Assembly: GCA_918797485.1 (NCBI GenBank) | Contig: CAKKNE010000001.1 | Span: 5,394,001 to 5,458,000, forward strand | Length of the DNA: 64,000 nt | Direction: 5' to 3' | From: Pelagomonas calceolata | Lineage: Eukaryota; Sar; Pelagophyceae; Pelagomonadales; Pelagomonadaceae | In this document: one piece after another, positions 33,580 to 36,307 of the stretch | Position numbering within the stretch: the stretch's first letter is position 1 | How the letters are laid out: each line of letters starts with the position of its first letter | The notes under the pieces: generated by a model | Told to the model about the DNA's origin: nothing | The model's input: the letters and a program-made list of their open reading frames with translations, nothing else | Databases searched by the model: none | Made by a program: the position numbers and the translations under genes

Positions 33580-33640
33580 CAACAGACTCTCGCCGCCAAG
33601 GCCCATGAATGGAGCCGAGGGCGGGTCACGTGGTCTGTCG
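33580..33640 (-). promoter_or_regulatory. SECIS-like hairpin in the 3'UTR of the arsenite methyltransferase gene
   Basis: Read on the - strand, CGACAGAC pairs with GTCTGTTG over 8 bp (helix I). An internal loop leads to GTGA on the left and CGAG on the right (the non-Watson-Crick quartet), then CCGCC pairs with GGCGG. Thirteen bases after GTGA comes an apical CC, where SECIS elements have AA or CC. It starts 55 nt past the true stop. Helix II is short and interrupted (GGC/GCC above an internal loop), so this is a candidate only. Confidence 0.45.
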
Positions 33641-33694
33641 CGGGTCGGCGGCGCGTTTGCGATGAGAAATCACGCGAAGCCGCCGCGCCTAGCC

Positions 33695-34906
33695 TCACGC
33701 GGCCGGCTTCGCCGACCCGCCCGCCGGCGGGCAGCAACCTGTCGCGGCGGGCGCCACGGGCGCGGCGGCGACCGGCGGCGCCGGCGGGCAGCACGCCGCC
33801 GCCGACGACGACGGGGCGCAGCACGCCGCCGACGCGCCGTAGAAGACGCCGTCGCGGAAGCCGTGGGCCTGGCGCGGCTTCGTGGCCGTCACGTAGGCCG
33901 ACGTGACGTAGTTCTCGGCGCCAGAGCCGGGGATCCAATCCTTGACGATGTCGCGGCCGTTCTCCTTGACAGTGATTTTGATGTCGTGGAAGCCGGCCGC
34001 AACAAGCATGTCGCGGATCTCGTCCTCGGCGCTGGCGCCGCTGACTCAGCAGGCGTAGGCCTCGGCCGTGCGCAGCTCCTCGGGGATTGTGGCTGTCCTT
34101 AACACGTCCGAGATGGACACGCGGCCGCCGGGCCGCAGCACGCGGTTCATCTCGCGGTAGACGGCGGGCTTGTCCGGGCTGAGGTTGATGACGCAGTTCG
34201 AGATCAGGCAGTCGACGACGCCGTCGCCGACCGGCAAATGCTCGATCTCGCCCAGCCTAAACGAGACCGTGGCGTAGCCCTTGGCCGACGCGGTCTGGCG
34301 CGCGCGCTGTAGCATCTCGGGCGTCATGTCGACGCCGATGACGCGGCCCTGCGGGCCCACCTGCTTGGCCGCCGCGAAGCAGTCGACGCCGGCGCCGCTT
34401 CCCAGGTCGAGCACGACCTCGCCCTCCTGGAGCCGGGCCGCGATCAGAGGATTGCCGCAGCCCAGTCCCAAATCCGCCCCTTCCTCGAGCTCCGTGCCCT
34501 CGTAGCCCAGCTTCGCCGAGCGCTTCTTCGCGTCGCCGACGTCGCCCGGTAGCACGCCGTGGCCGCCCGTCGCCGTCGCCGCGTAGGCGTCGCGCACGCT
34601 CGACCGGACGTCCGTCGAGCCGCCTCTTAAGGAAGCGAGCGTCTTCGGGACGTCGTGCGGCGCGCAGCCCGCGCTTTTGCCGTCCAAGGCTAGAGAGACC
34701 CACGGGAGAGAAGTAGCGCCGAGCGCGAGCGCCGCTTCCTCGCCGTCGTCCTCGTTGGCGTCGCACGTGGCCACGGTACATCCCTCGGCCGAGCAGATCA
34801 ACGCGAGCGGCGCGAGGCTATTCACCGCGAAGACGACGGCGCGCGGGCCGGGCTGCGCCAGGAAGGCGCGCGCCGCGGCCTCGTCCTCGAGAGAGGCTTG
34901 GGCCAT
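33695..34906 (-). CDS. arsM: Arsenite S-adenosylmethionine methyltransferase, probable selenoprotein
   Basis: Read through an in-frame TGA at 34048-34046 the product has 403 residues. LGCGNP (Cys150), motif [10 protein letters not shown] (167-175) and SNCVINL (Cys238) match ArsM/AS3MT. The TGA is codon 287 in EAYAC-TGA-VSGAS, aligned with the catalytic Cys of GECLGGA in human AS3MT and AYAGCVAGA in bacterial ArsM. Homology continues after it ([25 protein letters not shown]), so TGA most likely encodes selenocysteine. The tail holds four CC pairs in Ala/Pro-rich sequence, likely As-binding. The upstream frame is open to 35047 without ATG and resembles a transit peptide, so a 5' exon may be missing. 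The enzyme methylates trivalent arsenic. Confidence 0.85.
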
Positions 34907-35140
34907 CCTGACGCCGCGCGGTCTGGCGCTCCGCCCGCTCGCCGCCGCGGCTAGCGTCGCTACCGCGAGGAGGACGGCGCGCCGCGTCTTGCCTGATGCC
35001 ACGCGGCGCCACTCGCAGCGGCTGGAACGAGGCGCGGCCGCACAGCTCAAAATTTGAGATGTGTGGCGGTCTACCTGTGTCTGGCAACGCGCAGCGATGG
35101 CGTTTCAGGCTCTATTCAATGTGATGCGCCTCTCATGTTA

Positions 35141-35250: not shown

Positions 35251-36078
35251 TTACCCGTCCCCACGCCTCATCGGGTCCGTCGCCGCGTCCGCGTATTGGC
35301 GGACGCCGTGCCCACCGTCGACGTCCAGGACTACGCCCGTGACGAACTGTGCCGACGCGAGGTAGTGGATCGCCGCGCCCATGTCCGCGGGCTCCCCTAC
35401 TCGCTGGAGCGGTAGCGACGCCGCCGTGTTGGCGAGCATCGCCGCCTTCCTCTCGGTATCCATATGATCGAAGCGCTCCGTATCGCAGAAGCCGGGAGAC
35501 ATACAATTCACTCGCAATCGAGGGCCCAGGTCCAGAGCCAGGGAACGAGTCAAGCCTTCCAGTGCGCCGTTCGTCGCGGCCAGAGGTGCGCAGTTCTTGC
35601 CCGGCCGTCGATTCAAGACGCCCGCAACAAACGTGATCGATCCGCCGTCGGCGAGAACAGGCGCGACGTGCTTGGCGCAGTGCCACGCCGTCCAGAATTT
35701 AGAGTCCATCATGCCTCGAGCGTCCGCGACGTCAAGCTCGGCGACGGGTCCATGCGGCGCCCGGCCCGCCGCCGAGACGACCAAGGCATCGTAGCTGTCG
35801 GGAGCGAGTCCCGCCGCGAACGCTGCGACGGACGCCTCGTCGGTGGCGTCGACGGCCGCCGTGTCCACCGCATACGCGTCGGCGCCCGTCTCACGCATAA
35901 TCTCCTCGCGCGCGCGCTGCAGCTTGTCGGCACTACGCGATACGAGCAACGCGTGGCCGCCATTCTTCACAAACTGCTTTGCCGCCGCCTTACCCATTCC
36001 GGAGCTGCCTCCCACGACGATTGCGCGCTGTGGGGTCATCGCTGTGGCCGCTGCAATCCATGCCAACACAAGCTGCAT
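35251..36078 (-). CDS. Short-chain dehydrogenase/reductase lacking the Tyr-Lys pair
   Basis: 275 residues from the ATG at 36078. A hydrophobic N-terminus (MQLVLAWIAAATAM) precedes the Rossmann site VVGGSSGMGKAAAKQ. NAG-like VSAAGRAP is present. Where classical SDRs have YxxxK, this one reads LAATNGALEGLTRSLAL: Leu for Tyr and Asn for Lys. The product end (RVNCMSPGFCDTERF; VTGVVLDVDGGHG) is typical. Members with an ATN version of this motif exist among bacteria and algae; catalysis by the usual mechanism is doubtful. The frame is otherwise intact. Confidence 0.8.
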   Translation of the reverse strand: MQLVLAWIAAATAMTPQRAIVVGGSSGMGKAAAKQFVKNGGHALLVSRSADKLQRAREEIMRETGADAYAVDTAAVDATDEASVAAFAAGLAPDSYDALVVSAAGRAPHGPVAELDVADARGMMDSKFWTAWHCAKHVAPVLADGGSITFVAGVLNRRPGKNCAPLAATNGALEGLTRSLALDLGPRLRVNCMSPGFCDTERFDHMDTERKAAMLANTAASLPLQRVGEPADMGAAIHYLASAQFVTGVVLDVDGGHGVRQYADAATDPMRRGDG

Positions 36079-36307
36079 CACTCCAGTGTGCCAGCGGACG
36101 CAGCAGCAATGCAATGAGTGCGCGTAGGGCAATGGAAAGATCACCAAGCGTGTGTTGACGACGTCTTTGCGTCACGCCTCGCCGCGAAGGGCAGAGAGAA
36201 GCTGGCAGCTCTGCCACTGCTGTGAGAGCAAAGAGGTTGTGAGCAGCCAAGCTATCGCATAAATCGTCCAGCGGACTAGCCAATCGGCGCAAAACAGCTT
36301 CTCGGGT

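Follow-up and report, generated by a model that had tools for sequence, protein, structure and literature searches.

A probable selenoprotein arsenite methyltransferase gene, with a likely SECIS element, in Pelagomonas calceolata

The gene and the parts of its product

Here we describe a gene for a 403-residue ArsM-type arsenite methyltransferase, with one in-frame TGA, on the minus strand (34906-33695) of a 64,000-nucleotide stretch of the Pelagomonas calceolata genome, the whole of which is referred to below as the window. The frame is open from an ATG at 34906 to a terminal TGA at 33697-33695, the TGA at 34048-34046 (residue 287) being its sole interruption, and with Cys substituted for Sec the predicted product has a mass of 40.9 kDa. 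A sequence-only reading of this DNA had placed the in-frame TGA at a conserved catalytic cysteine, and our alignment agrees, setting it against Cys224 of CmArsM. The search query (P0001) comprised the 403 residues and one extra terminal Cys, from translation of the terminal TGA, hence the numbering 288-404 of the fragment that follows residue 287. Upstream of the ATG the frame stays open, without a further ATG, through 34907-35050 of the same strand; a similar hydrophobic leader that begins with Met is found in relative P0003, and a targeting leader whose start sits in an upstream exon is possible. The upstream neighbour on the same strand (35251-36147) resembles short-chain dehydrogenases/reductases and scores 237 bits against NF005449, below the cut-off of 257.

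The central part of the product, residues 98-346 (33869-34615), is an ArsM methyltransferase domain that spans the TGA and matches positions 5-270 of the 272 in profile NF008823. The read-through form scores 283.3 bits and the form cut at the TGA 238.7, so that only the former reaches the curated whole-protein cut-off of 263. Taken alone, the post-TGA fragment (116 residues) matches NF008823 positions 205-270 of 272 (E=5.6e-5), with homology extending over 59 residues, in keeping with the earlier estimate of at least 50. A phmmer alignment to CmArsM (4kw7) sets Cys150 (34457-34459), Cys238 (34193-34195) and residue 287 (34046-34048) on chain positions 72, 174 and 224, as counted from the alignment's printed coordinates, which we take to be the arsenic-binding cysteines of ArsM. 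With Sec counted as Cys all three positions compared are present, and both Cys150 and Cys238 are Cys in all 120 listed relatives. The residues 44, 72, 174 and 224 listed for ArsM in a passage of PMC5552862 agree with this assignment. Cys286 (34049-34051) adjoins the Sec position on its N-terminal side, and three CC pairs lie in a Cys-rich tail (residues 362-392; 33731-33823).

Residues 1-99 (34610-34906) form a thioredoxin-like domain without a CxxC motif. A profile built from ten N-terminal segments of the family matched PDB thioredoxins with a best E-value of 1.5e-8, and four of the ten segments matched Pfam Thioredoxin (best E=0.0003); when five whole proteins were scanned against Pfam, none matched thioredoxin. 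In the 44 relatives whose sequences stop at that column (see below), some of which are short at the N end, namely the column of the TGA, a CxxC upstream of the methyltransferase domain occurs in one row, and the thioredoxin-like domain therefore seems to have lost its redox pair.

Stop or cysteine at residue 287 among relatives

A protein search with U written as C, in which 8000 candidates were scored, yielded 120 listed relatives. In 44 of these the sequence ends exactly one residue short of column 287, and in the other 76 this column is Cys, as assigned by pairwise alignment. Ten of the 44 carry labels of a eukaryotic source (MMETSP, EukProt or a named pelagophyte), namely P0007, P0008, P0019, P0023, P0024, P0032, P0047, P0051, P0060 and P0071, and the remaining 34 are without such a label; the named Aureococcus relative, P0007, covers 59% of the query at 70% identity. 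A tree built by a quick method comprised 117 rows and left out four rows longer than 420 residues (P0004, P0005, P0017 and P0025); in it the 44 rows and the query form one group with an SH-aLRT value of 100. We infer that the stop codon of the other algal relatives, known here as protein sequences, is TGA as well. A single TGA in a frame that is otherwise open is also what a pseudogene or a one-codon sequencing error would leave behind, but the identical end point recurs across 44 protein clusters, with 139 member sequences in the closest one, and we regard either event as extremely improbable. Cys stands immediately before the column in 44/44 rows that end there, compared with 15/76 Cys-type rows, a contrast whose test value overstates the difference, the rows of one clade not being independent.

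The codons of prokaryotic relatives could be read directly. In the best 80 of 532 confirmed loci, which are mostly bacterial with some archaeal, the column is TGC in 52, TGT in 24 and TGA in 4, the TGA-bearing loci being those of Faecalicatena contorta (L093), two Desulfobacteraceae (L107 and L119) and Pelotomaculum (L116). The alternation between Cys and TGA for which the sequence-only reading had proposed to look is thus found at this column, with 76 Cys against 44 ending among the 120 listed proteins and 76 Cys codons against 4 TGA among the 80 prokaryotic loci. A search of viral contigs found no relatives. The P. calceolata genome also holds a second ArsM-like gene (L002, contig C2, 1165-2283 of the minus strand) that has Cys in the motif GECIGGA and no internal stop; it scores 200 bits against NF008823, below the cut-off of 263.

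As a query of its own, the post-TGA fragment matched 57 database proteins, 73-174 residues long and with identities reaching down to about 50%; the E-value was 1.9e-13 or lower for 56 and 0.01 for the remaining one. Many of the 57 are near copies of the query sequence rather than independent examples. In 47 of the 57 the first residue is the Met at position 13 of the fragment, and of the 55 in which the YVTSA anchor is present, 43 have a CC pair in the tail. One upstream half and one downstream half, P0024 and P0174, share the MMETSP transcript number 39127, with g.93505 and g.93509 as their gene numbers, suggesting a common transcript for the two. A search with residues 288-404 listed no full-length protein among 6880 candidates at an E-value threshold of 0.001, but it also missed known Cys-type relatives and carries little weight.

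These downstream proteins bear directly on the reading of the UGA as a true stop, by which the gene would encode a 286-residue ArsM without the third arsenic-binding residue and the C-terminal part. Gene callers do end 44 of the 120 listed relatives at this point, and two other catalytic cysteines would remain in such a product. Against this, the downstream frame has its 57 database matches even at around half identity, belongs to the ArsM profile and keeps its Cys pairs, and a dead frame is unlikely to have stayed open in so many relatives; we consider a true stop very unlikely.

The candidate SECIS element and the selenoprotein genes of the genome

The genome (32,445,274 bases in 8 contigs) contains two copies of tRNA-Sec, with anticodon TCA and 62.5 bits against a gathering threshold of 47. 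A tRNA-Trp/tRNA-SeC pair occurs twice at C5:5024950-5025614, about 580 bases apart, the first pair being followed by tRNA-Val, and this locus is a tandem duplication holding tRNA-Sec. One internal TGA was found in 4/5 family matches of GPX, 2/3 of Rdx and 2/11 of MsrA; none of nine AhpC-TSA_2 (PF13911) matches had an internal stop. The eight TGAs of the GPX, Rdx and MsrA genes stand in the contexts NVAS[EA]-U-G, YCGG-U-G, CTS-U-G and G-U-FW, which we take to be the usual Sec sites of these families.

At seven of these eight loci a structural scan found hairpins that share a single type, [AG]TGAC - helix II - apical CC or CA - CGA[CT], with the L009 hairpin ranking second in its locus and the 3' quartet of L012 re-read three bases earlier, and no hairpin of the type at L011. 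In six of the seven (L009, L010, L012, L015, L016 and L020) the first base of the next in-frame stop precedes the quartet by 25-54 nt, and this stop is TAG in every case. In the seventh, L027, where the family match is partial, this distance is 391 nt and there may be an intervening intron. The ArsM gene itself ends in TGA, and the second codon past this terminal TGA is a TAG (33691-33689), the codon with which the six other selenoprotein genes end; a two-residue readthrough of the terminal TGA near its own SECIS might occur.

Past the ArsM stop there is indeed a hairpin of the kind that the sequence-only reading had described, at 33640-33580, with 54 nt between the stop and helix I. Its helix I is formed by CGACAGAC (33640-33633) and GTCTGTTG (33587-33580), its quartet by G-TGAC (33629-33625) and CGAG (33592-33589), with an apical CC, and the distance from the first base of the stop to the quartet is 69 nt. 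The structural scan of 1.3 kb around the end of the gene returned this GTGAC...CC...CGAG arrangement (33629-33589) as the best candidate. Its score of -26.3 falls inside the range of -25.5 to -35.4 of the six controls recognised by the strict scan, which missed one of its seven controls (L012) and picked out five places in the window over both strands. Among 3000 dinucleotide shuffles of the 443-nt 3' region, 25 gave any candidate of the type and none reached the structural score of the hairpin, and 7 of 1146 overlapping window segments reached it, although the strict pattern was fixed after viewing the controls and the candidate together and such statistics mildly favour the candidate. Apart from the hairpin itself, only one place in the window attains this score. 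The folding energy of the 93-nt region is -51.9 kcal/mol, with a z-score of -4.95. A further species-type hairpin, at 34339 of the plus strand and antisense to the ArsM coding sequence around it, scores slightly above the candidate and was taken for a chance occurrence.

Searches with sequence-structure models gave a different picture, and the model match past the stop that had been proposed as a check did not appear. Rfam SECIS_1 had no match in 1,101 bases at the ArsM locus, nor anywhere in the genome; because TGA occupies the usual Sec sites of GPX, Rdx and MsrA genes in this genome, SECIS_1 seems to be blind to the SECIS type found here. A covariance model of our own, built from the seven hairpin loci (R1), gave the ArsM hairpin 12.8 bits (E=2.2), below 16 other non-training matches, compared with 31.8-44.2 bits for the seven training hairpins, which score highly by construction. 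A second model (R2), built from five of the seven, did not find the ArsM hairpin at E<=10; of the two held-out loci it found L009 (26.3 bits) and missed L016. Since R2 also missed a real control, we give the covariance models little weight either way. Three frame-shifted database ORFs, P0164, P0177 and P0178, read through the 3' region (33640-33560 of the minus strand); P0164 and P0177 keep the hairpin codons while their flanks differ, a pattern, taken from protein ORFs rather than DNA, that is suggestive only of a hairpin conserved between diverged flanks. In sum, the structural scan, the shuffles and the likeness to the genome's other selenoprotein genes speak for a SECIS element downstream of the ArsM stop and the covariance models do not, and we consider such an element likely.

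The same genome-wide survey bears on whether the UGA might be read as another residue (Cys, Trp or Arg), through programmed readthrough or a reassigned code. The Cys found at this column in 76 of the 120 listed relatives would suit such a reading, but TGA also serves as the terminal stop of the ArsM gene, eight other genes have TGA at usual Sec sites, seven of them with one hairpin type, and tRNA-Sec is present. We therefore think it highly improbable that the codon stands for any residue other than selenocysteine.

The proposed enzyme and its known counterparts

We conclude, with a probability of roughly 94%, that the gene encodes a selenoprotein arsenite methyltransferase in which UGA is decoded as Sec by way of tRNA-Sec and a SECIS element. 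The sequence-only reading had reached the same view, and it is upheld by the open frame, the homology on both sides of the TGA, the Sec/Cys alternation, the single end point in 44 of 120 listed relatives and the tRNA-Sec gene, all of them observed directly, together with a well-supported SECIS candidate of the genome's own type. The gene very probably functions as a selenoprotein gene and is of an ordinary kind.

ArsM enzymes methylate As(III) in a reaction that depends on S-adenosylmethionine. In the mechanism we propose, ribosomes would use tRNA-Sec to decode the UGA at 34048-34046 as selenocysteine, as directed by the SECIS hairpin that starts 54 nt past the true stop, to give a predicted product composed of a thioredoxin-like domain without CxxC, an ArsM domain and a Cys-rich tail. 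Cys150, Cys238 and Sec287 would bind As(III), and by analogy with ArsM chemistry its methylation would be S-adenosylmethionine-dependent, with Sec287 acting as a more nucleophilic ligand and as a redox residue. Cys286 and Sec287 could possibly form a selenenylsulfide that is resolved between methyl transfers. A bolder version of this proposal is that a widespread algal clade has a distinct, throughout selenium-dependent arsenic-methylating machine, in which an inactive thioredoxin domain is fused to ArsM, the third arsenic-binding residue lies in a constant vicinal Cys-Sec pair, every cycle of methylation is switched by a selenenylsulfide between Cys286 and Sec287, and open-ocean arsenic detoxification is tied to selenium supply; we hold this to be doubtful as a whole.

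If the selenoprotein reading is true, a marine picoalga needs selenium for arsenic methylation, and within one entire group of relatives Sec is the standard form. On a practical level, the UGA accounts for the two pieces in which these enzymes appear in databases: the 44 N-terminal halves stop short of the third arsenic-binding residue, and their C-terminal counterparts are small, mostly unnamed proteins. According to a passage of one survey, ArsM was counted only where at least three of the four conserved cysteines were present (PMC5552862), and surveys that use a cysteine rule of the type given there could miss or misjudge such split entries.

Sec-containing arsM is already in print for both bacteria and algae, and the kind of gene reported here is thus known. 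A passage of PMC13188914, citing Fomenko and others 2007, places NF008823 with the motif UxxG among prokaryotic selenoproteins, and the four TGA codons in our best 80 prokaryotic loci repeat that finding. The algal protein shares with the prokaryotic type both the family and the UxxG motif (here U-V-S-G), and the TGA lies at the same column. In contrast, in the best 80 prokaryotic loci the match to the query starts no earlier than about residue 83, with no thioredoxin-like part aligned; the residue before the TGA is Cys in two of the four TGA loci and Gly in the other two, whereas in the alga it is Cys, and Sec insertion in the prokaryotic type is presumably bacterial. Among eukaryotes, a methyltransferase selenoprotein was reported in 2007 from O. 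tauri, O. lucimarinus and T. pseudonana (in a passage of PMC2375036), and in 2008 arsM (PRK11873) was named in part of PMC2398784 among the selenoprotein families common to prokaryotes and eukaryotes, the latter mostly aquatic. Our gene resembles these systems as a predicted algal methyltransferase selenoprotein; they can be compared by description only, and the passages concerned make no mention of a thioredoxin-like domain or a Cys-Sec pair. MT, for methyltransferase, also appears in the abbreviations of algal selenoprotein families in PMC7539508, and MTR, for methyltransferase, in a figure legend on Aureococcus selenoproteins in PMC5917014. No open-licence paper pairing Pelagomonas calceolata with a selenoprotein was found, and to that extent the gene had not been described.

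Three further families, ArsM_AhpD_UU (NF041537), ArsM_DUF2284_UU (NF041536) and MTase_UXPK_star (NF047649), likewise have a Sec-bearing ArsM-like domain, but they are named for other fused domains and for two or three Sec residues, and the query, at 147, 138 and 143 bits respectively, falls far short of their cut-offs of 510, 575 and 460. Enzymes of the CmArsM (4kw7, 4fr0) and AS3MT type align at cysteines 72, 174 and 224, with Cys where the alga has Sec. Set beside these known systems, the details noted here are the thioredoxin-like N-terminal domain without CxxC and the constant Cys before Sec, present in 44/44 rows.
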